From Clostridia bacterium (GTDB taxonomy: Bacteria > Bacillota_A > Clostridia > Peptostreptococcales > JAAYPU01): a stretch of 16,382 nucleotides of DNA. Below are positions 3,677 through 12,289 of this stretch, piece by piece (positions within the stretch are counted from its first letter, which is position 1; every line of letters begins with the position of its first letter). Under the pieces are notes generated by a model. It was not told the origin of the DNA, made no database searches, and saw nothing but the letters and a program-made list of their open reading frames with translations. The stretch lies in the NCBI GenBank assembly GCA_022360735.1, contig JAKSCF010000275.1, forward strand, positions 1 to 16,382, read 5' to 3'. Both the position numbers and the translations under genes were made by a program.

Positions 3677-3880
3677 ATGCCAATGGAATTAAATATTGGT
3701 GATATAGTAGAATTAAAAAAACAACACCCTTGCGGCAACAACAAATTTGAAATTGCCAGAACGGGAATGGATTTTAGAATCATCTGCATACAATGTGGAA
3801 AGCATGTGTGGCTGAGTCGAAACAAACTTGAAAAACGGATAAGAAAAATAACACCAAAAGATGCATCCATAGATGAATAA
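3677..3880 (+). CDS. DUF951-type small protein
   Basis: This 67-residue protein begins with MELNIGDIVELKKQHPCGNN, then WLSRNKLEKRIRKI near the C-terminus, the pattern of the short DUF951 family common in Firmicutes. It contains three cysteines (one in HPCGN, one in IICIQCGKHVW with a second two residues on), which could bind a metal. The function is unknown; the small beta-rich fold suggests a nucleic-acid-binding role, which is inference. AAGGATGAG precedes the ATG. It lies 57 bases after the CvpA-family gene and may belong to the same transcript. No convincing terminator follows it before the leuA promoter. Confidence 0.88.
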   Translation: MPMELNIGDIVELKKQHPCGNNKFEIARTGMDFRIICIQCGKHVWLSRNKLEKRIRKITPKDASIDE

Positions 3881-3925
3881 AAAAATTAATATTTGTTAAA
3901 TTAAAATAAATTTTTAAAAAAACAA

Positions 3926-3954
3926 TTGACTTAAGATATTTCATTTGCTATAAT
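3926..3954 (+). promoter_or_regulatory. Promoter of the leuA T-box transcript
   Basis: TTGACT (3926-3931) and TATAAT (3949-3954) are separated by exactly 17 bases, with TGC just before the -10 box (near extended -10). This is a near-consensus housekeeping sigma promoter. Transcription would start near 3961, about 60 bases before T-box Stem I. The same arrangement recurs 2,158 bp downstream ahead of cimA. Confidence 0.9.
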
Positions 3955-4017
3955 CATTTCAAATATTTTTAATAAATAAATACATTGACAGAGTTATTAC
4001 TTCTTTTTAATAATAGG

Positions 4018-4240
4018 TTTAAGAGAGTCAGTGGTTGCTGGGAACTGATACCTTAAAAGAGTAAGCCTCGCTCTTGAGTATTATCTCCGAAAAATCGACT
4101 AAGAGATAACGGTAGGTCCCGTTATAAGACCACAGATTTGATAGAATCTGATTAAGTGGCTGTATTGATATACAGCAAAAAGGGTGGTACCACGGGAAAT
4201 TATTACTCGTCCCTACATTTATGTAGTGACGAGTTTTTTA
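4018..4240 (+). promoter_or_regulatory. T-box riboswitch leader of leuA
   Basis: This tRNA-sensing leader contains a Stem I start (AGAGAGTCAG at 4022), a conserved middle stem (4100-4151), and the canonical T-box AGGGTGGTACCACGGG at 4181-4196. It is followed by a terminator whose left arm includes the CGTCCC that competes for antiterminator pairing. Uncharged tRNA would stabilise the antiterminator and allow leuA transcription. The probable specifier segment is TTATCTC at 4081-4087, just before a GAAA element. It contains TTA and CTC (Leu) and ATC (Ile), so the specificity cannot be fixed by eye; position before leuA favours Leu. Between 4241 and 4415 there are only short repeats, and then the AGGAGG ribosome site of leuA. 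Confidence 0.95.
4205..4239 (+). terminator. T-box-controlled terminator upstream of leuA
   Basis: ACTCGTC (4205-4211) pairs with GACGAGT (4228-4234) and CTACAT (4213-4218) with ATGTAG (4221-4226). Six T residues (4234-4239) follow. This is the intrinsic terminator alternative of the T-box switch. Confidence 0.92.
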
Positions 4241-4344
4241 TTACGCTTAATTAAGATTTTAAACGTACTTAAGAGGGGGGAATATATCCTTAGGATAAAA
4301 TAAAAATATTGCTCAATAATAATTTTGTTAAGCAGTACAATTTG

Positions 4345-4377
4345 CTAAAGAATAGCAAACTACTAAAGAATAACAAA
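4345..4377 (+). repeat. 15-bp direct repeat, 18-bp period, in the leuA 5' region
   Basis: CTAAAGAATAGCAAA (4345-4359) and CTAAAGAATAACAAA (4363-4377) differ at one position. The first copy also forms a 6-bp hairpin with the preceding bases (TTTGCT 4341-4346 with AGCAAA 4354-4359). Its role is unknown, and slippage in AT-rich DNA would explain it. Confidence 0.6.
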
Positions 4378-4415
4378 AATGAAATATAAAAATAGAAATT
4401 AGGAGGATCATAAAA

Positions 4416-5933
4416 ATGACTAAAAAAATAATGATATTCGATACAACTTTAAGAGATGGAGAACAATCACCTGGATGCAGCATGAATATTAAAGAAAAAA
4501 TAGAAATGGCAAAGCAATTAGAACGATTAAATGTTGATATTATTGAAGCTGGATTTGCAGCAGCATCACCCGGAGACTTTTCTTCTGTAAAGGAAGTGGC
4601 GGATTCCATTAGAGGGTGTACGATAGCCAGCCTTGCCAGAACATTAACGGGTGACATTGATAGAGCATGGGAAGCTATTAAAAATGCAGAAAATCCACGT
4701 ATTCATACTTTTATTGCAACATCAGATATTCACATGAAATATAAATTAAAAATGGAGCCTGATCAAGTAAAGCAAAGAGCCATTGATATGGTGGCACATG
4801 CTAAAAAGTATTGCTCGGATATTGAATTTTCTGCTGAAGATGCAACACGTAGTGACCCATATTTTTTGGCAGAATTGTTTGAAGGTGTTATTCAGGCAGG
4901 TGCTACAACCATAAATATTCCAGATACAGTGGGGTATGTTACACCAAATGAATTTTATGAATTTATTACAACCATAAGAGAAAATACACCAAGTATGGAT
5001 AAAATTAATATTTCAGTGCATTGTCACAATGACTTAGGTCTTGCTGTTGCCAATACACTTGCGGCAGCTAAAGCAGGTGCAACACAATTTGAATGTACGA
5101 TTAATGGTATTGGTGAGAGAGCAGGTAATGCTGCATTAGAAGAGTTGGTCATGGTTATGGATACCAGAAAAGATATTTATAAAATGAATTCAAATATCAA
5201 GACGACTGAAATCATGCGCACCTCTTCACTTTTAAGTAGAATCACCGGTGTTAACGTACAGCCAAACAAAGCAATTGTAGGAAAAAATGCATTTGCTCAT
5301 GAATCAGGGATTCACCAGCATGGTGTTATGAATAATAAAGAAACTTATGAGATTATGACACCACAATCTATTGGCTTAAATAAAAACTCTATGGTCTTAG
5401 GAAAACACTCCGGACGACATGCTTTTGAAGACAGAATAAAGGAATTGGGTTATAACTTAACAAAAGAAGAATTAGATAAAGCATTTATTAAGTTTAAAAA
5501 TATTGCAGATAAGAAAAAAGAAGTATACGATAGAGATATTGACGCAATCATTGCCAAAGAATCTGTTCAGGTTCCAAAGACTTATTCATTGACAAGATTT
5601 GTTATCAACAGCGGCAATACGATAACTTCAACTGCATCGGTTATTTTGAATAAAGAAGGTAACGACATAGAAGAAGTTGCTATTGGCGATGGACCTATAG
5701 ATGCTGCTTTTAAAGCCATTGAAAAAATTGTTGGGATGAAACTTAAATTGGAAGATTATCATCTTCAATCCGTAACAGAGGGGGAAGACGCTCTAGGAGA
5801 TGCATTGGTTAAGTTGAGTAATGGAAATGGAAAAATTCATCCGGGTAGGGGACTTAGTACAGATGTTGTAGAGGCAAGTATTCATGCCTTCATAAATGCT
5901 GTTAATAAAATGATTTATGAAGACTCTATGTAA
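4416..5933 (+). CDS. leuA: 2-isopropylmalate synthase
   Basis: LeuA condenses acetyl-CoA with 2-oxoisovalerate to 2-isopropylmalate, the committed step to leucine. The 505-residue product has the full family layout. A TIM-barrel catalytic domain opens with TTLRDGEQSPG (residues 10-20). The metal and active-site motif HCHND is at 202-206, and GIGERAGNAALEE carries the Asn metal ligand at about 238. FAHESGIHQHG comes next, and from about residue 360 the C-terminal leucine-binding regulatory domain. That domain is complete, so feedback inhibition by leucine is likely. AGGAGG (4401-4406) supports the start. Expression should be controlled by the upstream T-box. A terminator follows, so the unit is probably monocistronic. 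The leuA frame stays open for 47 codons beyond the stop. Confidence 0.97.
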   Translation: MTKKIMIFDTTLRDGEQSPGCSMNIKEKIEMAKQLERLNVDIIEAGFAAASPGDFSSVKEVADSIRGCTIASLARTLTGDIDRAWEAIKNAENPRIHTFIATSDIHMKYKLKMEPDQVKQRAIDMVAHAKKYCSDIEFSAEDATRSDPYFLAELFEGVIQAGATTINIPDTVGYVTPNEFYEFITTIRENTPSMDKINISVHCHNDLGLAVANTLAAAKAGATQFECTINGIGERAGNAALEELVMVMDTRKDIYKMNSNIKTTEIMRTSSLLSRITGVNVQPNKAIVGKNAFAHESGIHQHGVMNNKETYEIMTPQSIGLNKNSMVLGKHSGRHAFEDRIKELGYNLTKEELDKAFIKFKNIADKKKEVYDRDIDAIIAKESVQVPKTYSLTRFVINSGNTITSTASVILNKEGNDIEEVAIGDGPIDAAFKAIEKIVGMKLKLEDYHLQSVTEGEDALGDALVKLSNGNGKIHPGRGLSTDVVEASIHAFINAVNKMIYEDSM

Positions 5934-6030
5934 GAAGGATTTAATGACAAAAAAGATTTGAAGGGACTTTATTATCTTACTAAAGCTGTAATAAGCGCAA
6001 TTAAAGAGGCAATGACGAATATCTATAAAG

Positions 6031-6070
6031 AAACAAGTCAAGTTTTTATTGAAACGGGGCTTGTTTTTAT
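6031..6070 (+). terminator. Probable intrinsic terminator after leuA
   Basis: AAACAAGTC (6031-6039) pairs with GGCTTGTTT (6058-6066, one G-T pair). An 18-base loop separates the arms, and a T-rich tract (TTTTTATTTC) follows. The long loop makes it weaker than the other terminators here. Confidence 0.6.
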
Positions 6071-6083
6071 TTCTTAAAAAGAT

Positions 6084-6112
6084 TTGACGAATTCATAAAT
6101 ATTTGCTATAAT
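6084..6112 (+). promoter_or_regulatory. Promoter of the cimA T-box transcript
   Basis: TTGACG (6084-6089) and TATAAT (6107-6112) have 17-base spacing, with TTTGC directly before the -10 as in the leuA promoter. Both boxes lie exactly 2,158 bp after their leuA counterparts. Confidence 0.9.
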
Positions 6113-6173
6113 ACATACAATTTATTTAATATGTAAATGCTATGATGGAGAGTTTTATTTTTTCATATTAAGG

Positions 6174-6394
6174 TCAAAGAGAGTCAGTGGATGCTGTGAG
6201 CTGATACCTTAGAAAAATAAGCATCACTCCGGAGTTTTATCTCTGAAATGCTTAGAGTAAGAGATAACGGTAGGTTCCGTTATAAGACCACAGGTTTGAT
6301 AGAATCTGACGAAGAGGCTGTTCTTATACAGCAATAAGGGTGGTACCACGGGCATATACTCGTCCCTACATGAATTGTAGTGGCGAGTTTTTTA
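6174..6394 (+). promoter_or_regulatory. T-box riboswitch leader upstream of cimA, paralogue of the leuA leader
   Basis: The same elements as the leuA leader appear in the same order: AGAGAGTCAG (Stem I), specifier segment TTATCTC at 6237-6243, the middle stem at 6258-6309, T-box AGGGTGGTACCACGGG at 6337-6352, then a terminator. The middle block matches 4100-4151 at 50 of 52 positions. The candidate specifier segment is identical in the two leaders, so both should respond to the same tRNA. Only the eroded leuA remnant lies between the leader and the cimA start. Confidence 0.95.
6358..6393 (+). terminator. T-box-controlled terminator upstream of cimA
   Basis: ACTCG (6358-6362) pairs with CGAGT (6384-6388) and CTACA (6366-6370) with TGTAG (6376-6380). 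Six T residues (6388-6393) follow. Confidence 0.9.
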
Positions 6395-6405
6395 ATATAA
6401 AAAAA

Positions 6406-6511
6406 TAAAAATGACAAGCAATTGGAGAAAAAGCATTTATAAAGTTTAAAAATATTATATACAAAAAAAGAAGTATATGATTGACTTATGGAGACTATAT
6501 GTAGGAGGGAT
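6406..6511 (+). pseudogene. Eroded remnant of a second leuA copy
   Basis: Two clear blocks align collinearly with leuA. Bases 6433-6480 match leuA from 5481: the first 24 bases agree at 23 positions, then AAAAAGAAGTATA recurs after small gaps. Bases 6483-6511 match 5912-5940, the end of leuA, at 24 of 29 positions. There the leuA-frame ending IYEDSM-stop appears as TYGDYM-stop (TAA changed to TAG). A weaker third match, ATAAAAATGAC ending at 6415, resembles the leuA start. Most of the roughly 1.5-kb gene is deleted, and the reading frame is broken. The remnant follows a duplicate of the leuA promoter and T-box, so the whole leuA unit was probably duplicated before decay. Its terminal ribosome-site-like sequence now serves cimA. 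Confidence 0.85.
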
Positions 6512-6514
6512 ATT

Positions 6515-8101
6515 ATGTTACAGAGGATTAAAATTTTCGATTCATCCTTAAGAGACGGAGCTCAAGCAAAAGGGATATCCTTTTCAGTAGAAGATAAGAT
6601 TAAAATAGTCCAATCACTTGATGATTTAGGAATTCACTACGTTGAAGCCGGTAACCCCGGTTCTAATTCAAAAGATATGGAGTTCTTCAATCGAGTAAAA
6701 GCATTTTCCTTCAAGCATGTAAGACTTACTGCTTTTGGGAGTACACGAAGAAAAAATATTTCTGTTGAAGAAGATAGTAATGTACAAAGCTTGCTGAAAG
6801 CATACACACCTGCCATTGCAATATTCGGTAAATCATGGGATTTTCATGTAACGGATGTCATTAAAACGACACTGGAAGAAAATTTAAATATGATTAAAGA
6901 TACCATTGGTTTTTTCAAAAAACATAATAAAGAGGTTATGTTTGATGCCGAACATTTCTTTGATGGTTACAAGTTTAATAAAGGATATGCCATTGAGTCG
7001 CTCAAAGCAGCGGTAGAGGGCGGTGTTGACAGTCTGGTATTATGCGATACCAATGGTGGGACTTTCCCGGAAGAAGTATACCAGATAACAAAAGAAGTTG
7101 TAGAAATGTTTGATGTAGAAGTGGGTATTCACTGTCACAATGACTGCGGAATGGCCGTTGCAAACTCTATAATGGCAGTCAATGCAGGAGCTATCCAAGT
7201 TCAAGGAACTTTCCTGGGATTTGGAGAACGGTGCGGGAATGCGAATCTTTCAACCATAATACCAAATTTACAGATGAAGAAAGGCTGCCAGTGTATAAGT
7301 GAAGAAAGCTTGCAAAAGCTGACGGATTGCTCAAAATATATTGCAGAAGTTACCAATATTAACCTGGACTCCAACATGCCTTATGTGGGGCAAAATGCTT
7401 TTGCTCATAAAGGTGGTATGCATATTGATGGTGTTACAAAAGCCAGCCATTCTTTTGAGCATATATCACCTGAGTGTGTTGGTAACTATAGAACTTTTTT
7501 GATGTCGGAGGTTTCAGGAAAGAATACCATCATTAAAAAGATTCAAAAAGTTGAACCGTCCATAACCAAAAGCTCTAAAGAAACTGAAGAATTGGTGGAT
7601 CTATTGAAAGAGTTAGAGCATGAAGGCTATCAATTTGAAGGCGCAGAAAGCTCTTTTGAAATGGTAATTCGCAAGCATTTAGGAAAATACAAACCACTAT
7701 TTAACCTTAAATACTATAGAATTATTGAAGAAGAACCCGTAATAGATAAACAAAGCAGTGCATCGGCTATGATAAAAATAAGCGTAGATGGAAAAGAAGA
7801 AATGACAGCTACGGAAGGGAATGGTCCTGTCAACGCATTGGATAAAGCCATACGTAAGGCGTTAGAAGTATTCTATCCCAGCTTAAAAGAGATGTACTTA
7901 ACAGACTATAAAGTACGTGTATTGGATGAAAGCAGCGCAACAGCTTCAAAAGTAAGAGTATTAATTGAATCTTCAGATGGAAAAAACAGGTGGACCACAG
8001 TTGGCGTATCCAGTAATATCATTGAAGCGAGTAAAATAGCTTTAGTAGATTCTATAGAATATAAGCTGATAAAAGATATGGAAAAAAACAAATTCATATA
8101 A
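6515..8101 (+). CDS. cimA: (R)-citramalate synthase
   Basis: CimA condenses acetyl-CoA with pyruvate to citramalate. LeuCD and LeuB then carry that to 2-oxobutyrate for isoleucine synthesis. The 528-residue protein resembles the longer citramalate synthase type. It has FDSSLRDGAQAKG (residues 8-20), VEAGNPGSNSKD, HCHNDCGMAVANS (from 206), GFGERCGNANLS, QNAFAHKGGMHIDG, and a C-terminal allosteric domain from about 390. DGAQ replaces the DGEQ of LeuA, as usual in this group. Homocitrate synthase-like chemistry is less likely. The start at 6515 is chosen because GGAGGG (6504-6509) precedes it. An in-frame ATG at 6488 lies inside the leuA remnant and adds residues unlike the family. The stop codon falls within the 81-bp regulatory repeat. 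Confidence 0.93.
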   Translation: MLQRIKIFDSSLRDGAQAKGISFSVEDKIKIVQSLDDLGIHYVEAGNPGSNSKDMEFFNRVKAFSFKHVRLTAFGSTRRKNISVEEDSNVQSLLKAYTPAIAIFGKSWDFHVTDVIKTTLEENLNMIKDTIGFFKKHNKEVMFDAEHFFDGYKFNKGYAIESLKAAVEGGVDSLVLCDTNGGTFPEEVYQITKEVVEMFDVEVGIHCHNDCGMAVANSIMAVNAGAIQVQGTFLGFGERCGNANLSTIIPNLQMKKGCQCISEESLQKLTDCSKYIAEVTNINLDSNMPYVGQNAFAHKGGMHIDGVTKASHSFEHISPECVGNYRTFLMSEVSGKNTIIKKIQKVEPSITKSSKETEELVDLLKELEHEGYQFEGAESSFEMVIRKHLGKYKPLFNLKYYRIIEEEPVIDKQSSASAMIKISVDGKEEMTATEGNGPVNALDKAIRKALEVFYPSLKEMYLTDYKVRVLDESSATASKVRVLIESSDGKNRWTTVGVSSNIIEASKIALVDSIEYKLIKDMEKNKFI

Positions 8102-8134: not shown

Positions 8135-8163
8135 TTGAATTATATTATACATCCATATATAAT
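8135..8163 (+). promoter_or_regulatory. Promoter of leuB
   Basis: TTGAAT (8135-8140) and TATAAT (8158-8163) are 17 bases apart. The -10 region lies in an inverted repeat, ATATTATA (8142-8149) with TATAATAT (8158-8165). The imperfect -35 fits an activator-assisted promoter. Confidence 0.75.
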
Positions 8164-8245: not shown

Positions 8246-9316
8246 ATGGAATTTAAAATTGCCCTAATACCAGGTGATGGCATTGGACCTGATGTGATCG
8301 AAGAAGCAATAAACGTACTAGATAAAATAGGAGAAAAATATGGACATACTTTTAACTATGAAAAGTTATTAGCAGGAGGATATGCTTTAGACGAAACAGG
8401 AGAAGCCCTTCCCTCAGTGACACTAGAAACATGTAAAAACAGTGATGCGGTGTTATTAGGTGCAGTTGGCGGCCCTAAATGGGATAACCTGCCGGGTGAA
8501 AAAAGACCTGAGCAAGCGTTGTTAGGGCTTAGAAAAGGGTTAGGATTATTTGCAAACCTTAGACCGGCCATCTTATTTGAAGCTTTAAAAGAGGCTTGCC
8601 CTTTAAAGCCGGAAATTATCGGTGACGGATTAGATATATGTGTCGTAAGAGAATTAACAGGGGGTATCTATTTTGGAGAAAAGGGATTTAAAGATACCGA
8701 ATTCGGAAAAGGCGCATACGATGTAAAAATCTATTCTGAAGGCGAAGTAAAAAGGATTGCCAAAATAGCCTTTGAAATGGCTCTGAAAAGAGATAAAAAA
8801 TTAATGAGCGTTGATAAAGCAAATATTTTGGAAAGCTCAAGATTATGGAGAAAAGTAGTTGAAGAAGTAGCGAAAGAATACCCAGAGGTAGAAGTGAACC
8901 ATATGTATGTGGATAATGCCGCTATGCAGCTTGTAAGAAACCCTAAGCAGTTTGATGTTATCGTTACAGGTAACATGTTTGGGGATATCCTTTCAGATGA
9001 AGCCAGCATGATTACAGGATCTATCGGAATGTTACCTTCAGCAAGTCTTGGAGAAGGTAATTTTGGAATGTATGAACCTGTACACGGCAGTGCGCCGGAT
9101 ATTGCAGGACAAGACAAAGCCAACCCTATGGCAACCATTCTATCTGCTGCAATGATGCTTAGATATACATTGAACTGCTCTGAAGAAGCAGATATCATTG
9201 AAAAAGCAGTTAAAAGTGTTCTAGACAAAGGATATCGAACCGGAGATATTATGAGTGAAGGTATGAAGCTGGTAGGTACTAAAGAAATGGGACAGCTCAT
9301 TATGAATGAAATTTAG
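8246..9316 (+). CDS. leuB: 3-isopropylmalate dehydrogenase
   Basis: LeuB oxidatively decarboxylates 3-isopropylmalate using NAD+ to give 2-oxoisocaproate. The same enzyme class converts 3-methylmalate to 2-oxobutyrate in the citramalate route. At 356 residues it has family length. It shows [13 protein letters not shown] near the N-terminus, [22 protein letters not shown], the catalytic [15 protein letters not shown], and [10 protein letters not shown]. The metal-binding [14 protein letters not shown] and the NAD-site segment [16 protein letters not shown] follow. The start has a modest GAAAGG site nine bases upstream. It has its own promoter within the 81-bp repeat. No terminator separates it from cimA, so readthrough from cimA is also possible. 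Confidence 0.96.
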
Positions 9317-9374
9317 AAATTAGTATGGATGTTTTGTCAGCCGGTTAAGGAGTAAAATAAATAAACAATAATCG

Positions 9375-9417
9375 ACAGCTTAAGCAATATATGGTGAATA
9401 TTGTTTAAGCTGTTTTA
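9375..9417. terminator. Bidirectional terminator between leuB and the convergent lysR gene
   Basis: A 16-bp stem pairs 9375-9390 with 9398-9413 (one G-T pair) around a 7-base loop, followed by TTTT on the plus strand. The stop codon of the minus-strand regulator (9415-9417) abuts the stem. Confidence 0.85.
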
Positions 9418-10302
9418 ATATTGATTTGTTAGATGATTAATAAACTTTTTTGAAGCCAAAGACAGAGGGAAATTCCTATGATAGAGGATTCCTACTGCTC
9501 TTGGAGGTATAGGCGGCGCAATTGGAAGCTCTGAAAGATTACCTGAATTCAGGTCTTCTTGAATAAATTCTTTAATTAGGACAGTAATACCAAGACCTAA
9601 TTTAGCGAATTCTATTAATATATCCATATTACCGGTTTCAATTTCAGGTTTCGCAGTAATATTATTTAATATCAAATATTTATTAATGTATTTTCTGGTT
9701 ATATTATCTTCTTCCAAAAGCATAATCGTATGATCTGTAAAAAAGTTATCAGAATTCATAATATCATGACTTTCAATATAACTGTTACAAGCAATGAAGA
9801 CATCGTGAATATCCATGAGTTTTATGAATTCATAATTTTGGTTATCAAAGGGCTGACTGACAAGTCCAAAATCGATAATACCTTCATCAACAAGCTTTAA
9901 AGTTTCAAAAGTAGATCTGCTAAATATCTGAATCTTAACATTAGGATTTAAATGAATATATGTTTTAAGATGAGGCAGCAAGAGATGCTTGCAAAGAGTA
10001 GTGCTTACGCTCATTTTTAATGAGCCATACTCATTGGTTTTTATTTTATCAAGGATATTTACTCCAAGTGATAGTTCGGTCATTGCTTTTTCAACATAAT
10101 CAAAAAAAATACTTCCTTCATTAGTCAGTTTTACACCCCTTGAATTTCGAACAAATAGTGGAATGCCAAGTGCTTCTTCAAGTTTTTTGATGGACTTGCT
10201 TATTGCCGGTTGACTGATAAACAATTTTTCTGCTGCTTTTGATATATTTTTGCAGTTTGCTACGGTATAAAAAACTTTGTAGAGCTCCATATCAATATTC
10301 AT
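9415..10302 (-). CDS. LysR-type transcriptional regulator, probable regulator of leuB and leuCD
   Basis: The 295-residue protein begins MNIDMELYKVFYTV. It has an N-terminal winged helix-turn-helix typical of the family (about residues 5-63, including SKAAEKLFISQPAISKSIKKLE) and a periplasmic-binding-like effector domain from about 90. The start at 10302 is chosen because GGAGG (plus-strand CCTCC 10309-10313) sits six bases upstream; a longer frame to 10362 has poorer support. It is divergent from leuC, the classic arrangement for a LysR-type regulator and its target. The shared intergenic box is copied upstream of leuB. A pathway intermediate such as 2-isopropylmalate would be a logical effector, but that is inference. 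The protein probably also represses its own gene. Confidence 0.92.
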   Translation of the reverse strand: MNIDMELYKVFYTVANCKNISKAAEKLFISQPAISKSIKKLEEALGIPLFVRNSRGVKLTNEGSIFFDYVEKAMTELSLGVNILDKIKTNEYGSLKMSVSTTLCKHLLLPHLKTYIHLNPNVKIQIFSRSTFETLKLVDEGIIDFGLVSQPFDNQNYEFIKLMDIHDVFIACNSYIESHDIMNSDNFFTDHTIMLLEEDNITRKYINKYLILNNITAKPEIETGNMDILIEFAKLGLGITVLIKEFIQEDLNSGNLSELPIAPPIPPRAVGILYHRNFPLSLASKKFINHLTNQY

Positions 10303-10316
10303 ATATAACCTCCAGA

Positions 10317-10329
10317 TATGACAGATATA
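10317..10329. promoter_or_regulatory. Candidate LysR-type operator in the lysR-leuC region
   Basis: TATGACAGATATA is a T-N11-A box with TAT/ATA ends, the same as 8110-8122 apart from one base. It lies in the lysR 5' leader and about 54 bases before the predicted leuC transcription start, fitting activation of leuC and autorepression. Confidence 0.6.
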
Positions 10330-10341
10330 AATACTAGGCAT

Positions 10342-10370
10342 TTGAATTATATCATACATCAATATATAAT
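10342..10370 (+). promoter_or_regulatory. Promoter of leuCD
   Basis: TTGAAT (10342-10347) and TATAAT (10365-10370) are separated by 17 bases, as in the leuB promoter. The predicted leader before the leuC start is about 85 bases and shows no clear riboswitch. Confidence 0.75.
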
Positions 10371-10461
10371 ATTTACAAATACATGAAAAATATATTACTA
10401 TATAGCTGATATCCTGTATAGGAACACAGTCTAAAAATTAAAAAGAAAGTAGGAGAATAAA

Positions 10462-11745
10462 ATGGGTAAAACATTAGCTGAGAAAATATTTGATTCTCAT
10501 AGAGTAGATATGCCGTTTCCTGATACACATGTTTTGAAGTTGGATAGGGTGTTTTGCCATGAAATTACTACACCTATTGCGATTACAGATCTTATGGAAA
10601 GAGGGATGGATAGAGTTTTTGATGCTACGAAAATTAAGGTTGTTATTGACCATGTGACACCTGCTAAAGACTCAAAAACTGCCGAACAAGGAAAAATATT
10701 ACGTGACTGGGCAAAAAGACACAAAATTAAAGACTTTTTTGACATTGGAAGAAATGGAGTATGTCATGCGATTTTCCCTGAAAAGGGATTTGTAAGACCC
10801 GGATACACAATTATTATGGGGGATTCACACACATGTACTCATGGTGCATTTGGAGCTTTTGCAGCAGGAATTGGAACCACAGACCTTGAGGTAGGAATAT
10901 TAAAAGGTGTTTGTTCTTTTCATTTTCCCGAAACAATTAAAATAATACTTAATGGGGAATTGAAACCTGGCGTATATGCAAAAGACGTGATTCTTTTCAT
11001 TATTAAAGAGCTAACTGTAAACGGAGCAACCAATAAGGTTATAGAATTTACAGGACCAATTGTGGAAGCTATGTCAATGGAATCACGTATGACATTATGT
11101 AACATGGCAATTGAAGCTGGTGGGACAAGTGGAATATGCTACCCTGATATGACGACAGTTGAGTATTTATGGGATTTCATCAAAGATGAATTTTCTTCTA
11201 AAGAAGCAGCATTAGCTGAGTACTCAAAATGGGTTTCGGATGAAGACGCTTCTTATGCGAACGTATATGAGTATGATGTTACAGATTTGGAGCCAATGGT
11301 AACTTTTGGATTCAAACCGGATCAAGTTAAATCAGTCAACGAGATGTCAGGTACAAAAGTTGATCAGATTTATATTGGAAGCTGTACAAATGGTCGTATA
11401 GAAGATTTGAGAATTGCAGCAAGTATTCTTAAAGGCAAAAAAATCAGCGATGATGTTCGTGGAATAGTAAGCCCTGCAACACCTGATGTATATTCTATGG
11501 CATTAAAAGAAGGCATTATACAGATTTTCCAAGACTCTGGTTTCTGTGTTACGAACCCAACCTGTGGCGCTTGTTTGGGAATGAGCAATGGTGTACTTGC
11601 CGATGGAGAAGTTTGTGCATCTACGACAAATCGTAACTTCAATGGTAGAATGGGTAAAGGCGGCACAGTGCATCTTATGAGTCCTGCAACTGCTGCAGCT
11701 ACAGCAATTGCAGGTGAAATTACTAATTCAGAGTTATACAAATAA
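10462..11745 (+). CDS. leuC: 3-isopropylmalate dehydratase, large subunit
   Basis: With LeuD it isomerises 2-isopropylmalate to 3-isopropylmalate, and citramalate to 3-methylmalate in the citramalate route. The 427-residue length fits the short LeuC/HacA-like type rather than the roughly 470-residue enterobacterial form. Landmarks are GDSHTCTHGAFGAFAAG, IGSCTNGRIEDLR and PTCGACLGMSNGVL. The cysteines in the last two (Cys308, Cys368 and Cys371) are the usual three [4Fe-4S] ligands of aconitase-family enzymes. STTNRNFNGRMG and SPATAAATAIAG follow near the C-terminus. A GTAGGAG site precedes the ATG. leuD follows after 19 bases in the same transcript. Confidence 0.96.
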   Translation: MGKTLAEKIFDSHRVDMPFPDTHVLKLDRVFCHEITTPIAITDLMERGMDRVFDATKIKVVIDHVTPAKDSKTAEQGKILRDWAKRHKIKDFFDIGRNGVCHAIFPEKGFVRPGYTIIMGDSHTCTHGAFGAFAAGIGTTDLEVGILKGVCSFHFPETIKIILNGELKPGVYAKDVILFIIKELTVNGATNKVIEFTGPIVEAMSMESRMTLCNMAIEAGGTSGICYPDMTTVEYLWDFIKDEFSSKEAALAEYSKWVSDEDASYANVYEYDVTDLEPMVTFGFKPDQVKSVNEMSGTKVDQIYIGSCTNGRIEDLRIAASILKGKKISDDVRGIVSPATPDVYSMALKEGIIQIFQDSGFCVTNPTCGACLGMSNGVLADGEVCASTTNRNFNGRMGKGGTVHLMSPATAAATAIAGEITNSELYK

Positions 11746-11764
11746 TAAGTAGAGGAGGACCAAA

Positions 11765-12289
11765 ATGAAAAAATTTAGTGGAAAAGTTTTATTTTTAAAT
11801 AGAAGTGATATCAATACAGATGAAATCATTCCTGCAAAATATTTAACTGAAATTACTAAAGAGGCATTAAAACCTTATTTATTAGAAGATTTAACGCTTG
11901 AAGGCTTTAATAATGTAGAAGATATTAAAAATAAAGCTGTAATTGTAACAAGAGAAAATTTTGGTTGCGGATCTTCTAGAGAGCATGCTCCATGGGCTTT
12001 GGAAGTCAACGGAATCAATGTTGTTATAGCTGAAAATTTTGCAAGAATATTCAGACAAAACATGTACAATTGCGGTATGTTTGCAATAGAATTACCAAAA
12101 GATAAAATTGAATATATATTTGATAATTTTTCAGATAAAGATACTTCTATAGAAATTGATGTTGATAATAATAGGATTGTTATAACAGCACCAGATCAAT
12201 CAGAAGAAATATTTTTTACTGTTGGCGGATTTGATAAGACACTTGTTAAAGAAGGCGGCTGGGTTGGTTACGCTGATAAAAATTATTAG
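11765..12289 (+). CDS. leuD: 3-isopropylmalate dehydratase, small subunit
   Basis: This is the swivel-domain partner of LeuC. The 174-residue protein matches the short bacterial/archaeal type. It has DINTDEIIPAKYLTE near the N-terminus and the substrate-binding NFGCGSSREHAPWAL. The ending GGWVGYADKNY is plausible for the family. The upstream GAGGAGG site and 19-base gap from leuC support coupled expression. A strong terminator follows within 80 bases, ending the leucine block. Confidence 0.95.
   Translation: MKKFSGKVLFLNRSDINTDEIIPAKYLTEITKEALKPYLLEDLTLEGFNNVEDIKNKAVIVTRENFGCGSSREHAPWALEVNGINVVIAENFARIFRQNMYNCGMFAIELPKDKIEYIFDNFSDKDTSIEIDVDNNRIVITAPDQSEEIFFTVGGFDKTLVKEGGWVGYADKNY

Follow-up and report, generated by a model that had tools for sequence, protein, structure and literature searches.

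Organization of the leuA and cimA Region

The window, by which we mean the whole stretch of 16,382 nucleotides analyzed here, is apparently a whole contig. It carries, in order, a gene that we take to be cvpA-like, a small gene (3677-3879), promoter 1, T-box 1, leuA, promoter 2, T-box 2, a remnant of leuA, cimA, leuB, a divergent LysR-type gene, leuC, leuD, and a sigma-54-type regulator. The features of the leuA and cimA region are the following.

3926-3954, forward strand: promoter 1 (TTGACT-17-TATAAT), 11 of 12 consensus positions; a consensus match only
3976-4217, forward strand: T-box 1, the leuA leader (RF00230, 137.2 bits)
4067-4069, forward strand: T-box 1 specifier CUC (Leu), from the specifier column of the leader alignment
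4205-4234, forward strand: T-box 1 terminator hairpin (fold prediction)
4416-5933, forward strand: leuA, 2-isopropylmalate synthase, intact (TIGR00973, 731.6 bits, cut-off 598.7)
6029-6068, forward strand: predicted terminator-like hairpin behind leuA with a U-rich 3′ arm (−16.8 kcal/mol, z −4.88, 0 of 200 shuffles)
6084-6112, forward strand: promoter 2 (TTGACG-17-TATAAT), 11 of 12 consensus positions
6133-6370, forward strand: T-box 2, the cimA leader (RF00230, 135.5 bits)
6223-6225, forward strand: T-box 2 specifier AUC (Ile), the lone ATC among nine aligned leaders, the other eight having CTC
6358-6388, forward strand: T-box 2 terminator hairpin (fold prediction)
6420-6511, forward strand: remnant of a second leuA, including its stop codon TAG (6502-6504) and the cimA ribosome-binding site (0 of 2000 shuffles); disabled by a 2-nt frameshift and a 379-nt deletion, and lacking the leuA sequence before about 5470
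6515-8101, forward strand: cimA, citramalate synthase (TIGR00977, 736.4 bits, cut-off 450)

The two promoter-like sites have the same spacer of 17 and lie exactly 2,158 bp apart (3926-3954 and 6084-6112), the offset reported in the initial annotation. The hairpin at 6029-6068, absent from the output of a simple terminator scan with a loop limit of 8, could on the basis of its predicted fold end leuA transcripts and separate the leuA and cimA units. Another promoter-like site (10 of 12 positions) is found at 8135-8163 in the gap between cimA and leuB and could give leuB its own start. The longest cimA frame begins at ATG 6488, inside the leuA remnant; the ribosome-binding site and the related loci favor ATG 6515, and automatic annotation may misplace the start at the former.

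Two Intact T-Box Leaders

At the Rfam gathering threshold (93 bits for RF00230), two elements were found in the window, T-box 1 and T-box 2. Both cover model positions 1-219 of 219, and the score of the second nearly equals that of the first (135.5 versus 137.2 bits). The UGGU bulge of the antiterminator is present and unchanged in both. When five leaders were compared, 92.6% of the cells in the T-box secondary structure paired and 8 of the 47 pairs had changes in both partners, where slid controls gave 1-2; only 4 of 500 shuffles reached 8. The set comprises just five sequences, and further pair types were no more numerous in it than in the shuffles (203/500). The helix of the terminator pairs in 98.3% of the cells of the aligned leaders, where variation is too small for a covariation test. 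In each leader, the specifier fits the pathway that it precedes, CUC before leuA and AUC before cimA. Both leaders are T-boxes by their gathering score, a specifier matched to the pathway, a maintained structure, and a UGGN bulge with a competing terminator.

A Remnant of leuA Precedes cimA

Three pieces of the sequence between T-box 2 and cimA are collinear with leuA: 6427-6456 is identical to leuA 5475-5504 at 28 of 30 positions, 6457-6481 to 5507-5531 at 21 of 25, and 6482-6511 to 5911-5940 at 25 of 30. Gapped local alignment lengthens the remnant leftward to 6420 (leuA 5470). Relative to leuA, bases 5505-5506 and 5532-5910 are gone. The initial annotation had described two leuA pieces (24 of 29 and 23 of 24 matches); their collinearity with leuA stands, with figures that were slightly conservative, but the picture of two islands does not, since most of the ∼90 bp is leuA. 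The old leuA stop codon, also noted there, is retained as TAG at 6502-6504, 10 nt from the cimA ATG at 6515.

The local alignment scores against leuA are 76 (6396-6481) and 35 (6470-6514). Neither was reached in 2000 dinucleotide shuffles, whose maxima were 49 and 31, so that the fossil passed the comparison with shuffled sequence proposed for it. In 52 control windows from other parts of the contig, on both strands, the scores did not exceed 27 and 21. Chance similarity is ruled out by the shuffles and the control windows together. With collinear similarity above chance and disabling changes, 6420-6511 is a genuine pseudogene remnant of leuA.

The Undivided Unit of Related Loci

Related loci were collected in a genome scan, from which the best 80 of 584 confirmed loci were kept, and in a second search of 98 relatives of genome G001, 87 of which gave some match and which yielded 25 cimA-like loci. 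The nearest among the loci compared are L001, L141, and L142, with cimA at 80%, 79%, and 77%; the last value covers the first 150 residues, since the L142 gene lies at a contig end. Closer relatives of CimA, P0002 (87%) and P0003 (84%), were encountered at the protein level. The leuA of the window falls outside these three in a leuA tree, with support of 0.99. All three relatives have cvpA, the small gene, one T-box found, an intact leuA, and cimA starting 9-10 nt past the leuA stop. They share with the window the neighbors, a related leader, and the leuA-cimA junction, and differ in that their unit is undivided and has a CUC specifier, whereas that of the window is split.

The spacing of stop codon, 10 nt, and ATG at the end of the remnant equals the leuA-cimA junction of the relatives; leuA was therefore once intact at this place, with cimA in the same unit. 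The 3′ end of the remnant is the native leuA-cimA junction, carrying the ribosome-binding site of cimA. The initial annotation had read the locus as the capture of cimA by an inherited switch. This part has to be given up: because cimA already follows leuA under one T-box in 3/3 nearest relatives, it was by this comparison separated rather than captured, having already belonged to a leuA unit that duplication and the loss of the inner leuA split in two. The tandem duplication of promoter, T-box, and leuA that had been proposed, followed by deletion inside the second leuA, is supported and leaves the second T-box before cimA. Relatives had been suggested as the place to look for a second, intact leuA or for more of the remnant; neither was seen in any of the neighborhoods inspected, and in the three relatives the unit is undivided.

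The genes further downstream also differ in order. In the window (8246-12289), leuB follows cimA, and leuC-leuD lie behind the divergent LysR-type gene; the order in L001 and L141 is cimA-leuC-leuD-leuB. The similarity of the window LeuC is only 44% to those of G001 and G005 but 90% (residues 68-427) to one in G006, with LeuD at 83%; the window is not paired with G006 in the leuA tree. A replacement or transfer of leuCD in the window is likely on these sequence comparisons.

Descent and Timing of the Two Leaders

T-boxes 1 and 2 are identical at 236 of 310 aligned positions and group together in 235 of 300 neighbor-joining bootstraps (FastTree support 0.917). The 3′ halves of the leaders give 262 bootstraps and a support of 0.967, the 5′ halves 43 and 0.393. 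In the best block of 54 columns, the two leaders match at 51, close to the 50 of 52 positions given for a middle block in the initial annotation, and 12 of 2000 column shuffles reach this value; 39-42 of 53-54 is the figure for the relatives in the same block, where they differ. Outside it, T-box 1 and T-box 2 match at 185 of 256 positions, a level no higher than that of T-box 2 with the three relatives (184/253, 186/254, and 184/248). Equally extreme blocks are obtained for T-box 1 against L142 (51, 0/2000 shuffles) and L001 (50, 13/2000), and uneven identity alone is for this reason no proof of gene conversion. Conversion between the leaders of the window is possible.

The time of copying does not follow from the leaders by themselves. 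The remnant is more informative, as it is identical to the leuA of its own window at 74 of 85 positions and to those of L001, L141, and L142 at 64, 60, and 67 of 85. FastTree groups it with the window leuA (support 0.911), which is the sequence nearest to it in 1905 of 2000 column bootstraps (78 coding columns, ties shared). Among the sites that set the window leuA apart from all three relatives, the remnant agrees with the window at five and with the relatives at three; two of the latter three fall in the region of the stop codon and ribosome-binding site. This proximity favors, as far as the alignments go, a duplication that took place once the lineages of the window and the three relatives had separated.

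It is unlikely that the duplication instead predates that split, with the relatives having recombined back to one unit and the middle of the window leaders having been homogenized later by gene conversion. Such an order of events would account for the failure of the 5′ halves to group (43/300) and for the single closely matching block, in which the relatives differ, beside the lower identity outside it. It does not sit well with a remnant closer to the window leuA than to that of any relative, nor with the equally extreme blocks between T-box 1 and L142 or L001.

The sequence between the intact leuA and promoter 2 was also inspected. No match to cimA was found in 5934-6075, and alignment of the sequence behind intact leuA with the cimA starts of the window, L001, L141, and L142 gave scores reached by 356, 101, 509, and 938 of 2000 shuffles. 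A cimA remnant behind the intact leuA is therefore unsupported, its scores being no better than those of shuffles. The spacer at 5934-6083 has no clear source in the compared parts of the window, L001, and the relatives, the best match in the three relatives being 47 bases in G005 (E = 1.3e-4), and it gave no phage match at E 1e-5. A megablast search of 3900-8101 against plasmids returned nothing similar.

A Probable Change of the Specifier from Leucine to Isoleucine

Nine leaders were aligned: T-box 1, T-box 2, those of L001, L141, and L142, and the leuA-only leaders of L155, L156, L157, and L151. In a further leuA locus, L158, no T-box motif was found. The specifier column reads CTC in eight of the nine, and ATC in T-box 2 alone. 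AUC is one base from CUC. In the figures taken from the TBDB article (PMC7778990), AUC accounts for a fraction of 0.99 of isoleucine specifiers and CUC for 0.77 of leucine specifiers. T-box 2, which would be inherited from a leucine switch, now reads as an isoleucine switch, and a response to tRNA-Ile is predicted from its codon. The earlier idea that an inherited tRNA-sensing switch drives cimA holds for the inheritance; it overlooked the change of specifier to AUC (Ile).

The enzyme encoded by cimA is the entry to the citramalate route to isoleucine. Threonine deaminase scores above the cut-off in the relatives G001 and G005, and cimA therefore need not be the sole route to this amino acid. 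In G001, tRNA-Leu(GAG) has an A before CCA, which fits the UGGU bulge. The same base is the discriminator of tRNA-Ile. The draft genome G001 gave 32 tRNA matches, none of them to tRNA-Ile(GAU). Since 74 of 310 aligned positions differ between T-box 1 and T-box 2, the specifier is not the sole change between the leaders.

T-boxes are also found before cimA elsewhere. In L151 and L153, from other Clostridia, the T-box immediately preceding cimA reads ATC by eye and passes Rfam, and that in L022, identified by motif only, likewise reads ATC by eye. L151 resembles the window in having leuA behind a CTC T-box and cimA directly behind an ATC T-box (L153 offers the cimA part only) but has the two genes on opposite strands. 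T-boxes leading larger operons that reach cimA read ATC in 12 of 16 loci and CTC in four (L144, L152, L154, and L160; by eye), so that an isoleucine T-box before cimA is common, not universal. Profiles named intervening genes in 5 of these 16 loci, as ilvN, ilvC, and ilvB. The leader of L144 (genome G092) that ends near 2913 has CTC, in contrast to the ATC of the related L143, L145, and L146; perhaps this is another one-base switch of the specifier, in either direction.

T-box 2 might instead still be a leucine switch, or read another frame of the specifier loop, with AUC a product of drift. Alternative frames are possible in T-boxes according to PMC7778990. This explanation is improbable given that AUC is the standard isoleucine specifier and fits the downstream pathway, that the structure of T-box 2 is maintained, and that ATC also stands in the T-boxes immediately preceding cimA in L151 and L153.

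A Proposed History of the Locus

We consider it probable that the unit was duplicated, that the inner leuA was lost, and that the specifier of the inner T-box changed from CUC to AUC, giving a leucine-switched leuA and an isoleucine-switched cimA. The ancestor would have had one unit of promoter, leucine (CUC) T-box, leuA, and cimA, with about 10 nt between the leuA stop and cimA. In the lineage of the window, the part comprising promoter, T-box, and leuA would have been duplicated in tandem, and the inner leuA, adjoining cimA, would have been lost through a large 5′ deletion, the 379-nt internal deletion, and the 2-nt frameshift. The last bases of leuA were plausibly retained because they hold the ribosome-binding site of cimA. 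The inner T-box would then have diverged, its specifier changing by one base, perhaps under selection. This would leave leuA with a terminator of its own and a switch for tRNA-Leu(GAG), and give cimA a separate promoter and a switch for tRNA-Ile(GAU). When tRNA-Ile is uncharged, it is expected to stabilize the antiterminator and thereby to switch on cimA, and with it the citramalate entry to isoleucine. More tentatively, duplication and gene loss may have split the regulation of a two-gene operon, possibly with cimA being lost in turn from the first copy as the complementary step, and specificity may have followed by one specifier base.

An assembly artefact, in which loci of two strains were joined in one contig, is very improbable: although the window is apparently a whole contig of 16,382 bases, the longest exact run common to 3880-5960 and 5961-8101 is 18 bases, short for a mis-join, and a join would not place a leuA fragment with deletions at the native junction of leuA and cimA. 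Least probable of all is that T-box 2 derives from a different isoleucine T-box in the genome, the leuA fragment alone being local; moves of this kind have been proposed for T-boxes (PMC2494555), but with G001 as the comparison genome, T-box 2 matches the leuA T-box at 225 of 280 positions (score 277) and the other 19 T-boxes with scores of at most 95.

Comparison with Known Systems

Duplication of a T-box with a change of specificity is a route already proposed (Wels et al., 2008, PMC2494555). Analogous to that route, a copied T-box with a changed specifier stands here before a gene of another amino acid; there, in the portion consulted, the route was inferred from leader similarity, whereas here the element was evidently copied with its gene, the remnant of which is still on site. 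Two T-boxes at one branched-chain locus also occur as contiguous elements in branched-chain operons (PMC12452182). Those stand side by side before one operon, whereas the leaders in the window flank a whole gene and have a promoter-like site each. None of the papers listed in searches of open-licence literature is described there as treating a cimA T-box or a leuA remnant behind a T-box; absence from print is not claimed.

The locus is an unusually readable instance of the proposed route of duplication with changed specificity. Moves of regulatory RNAs to new genes and changes in what they sense are mostly inferred from similarity of leaders. Here, one locus has both the remnant of the donor gene and the difference in specifier, and three relatives retain the undivided arrangement. 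A pair of leucine and isoleucine T-boxes evolved from one ancestor would help to test which further changes, besides that of the specifier, are needed to switch tRNAs, here between a tRNA with a long variable arm (Leu) and one with a short arm (Ile). If the more tentative reading is true, the locus would hold a natural RNA switch whose ligand changed to suit the gene that remained behind it, in a form that can still be read.
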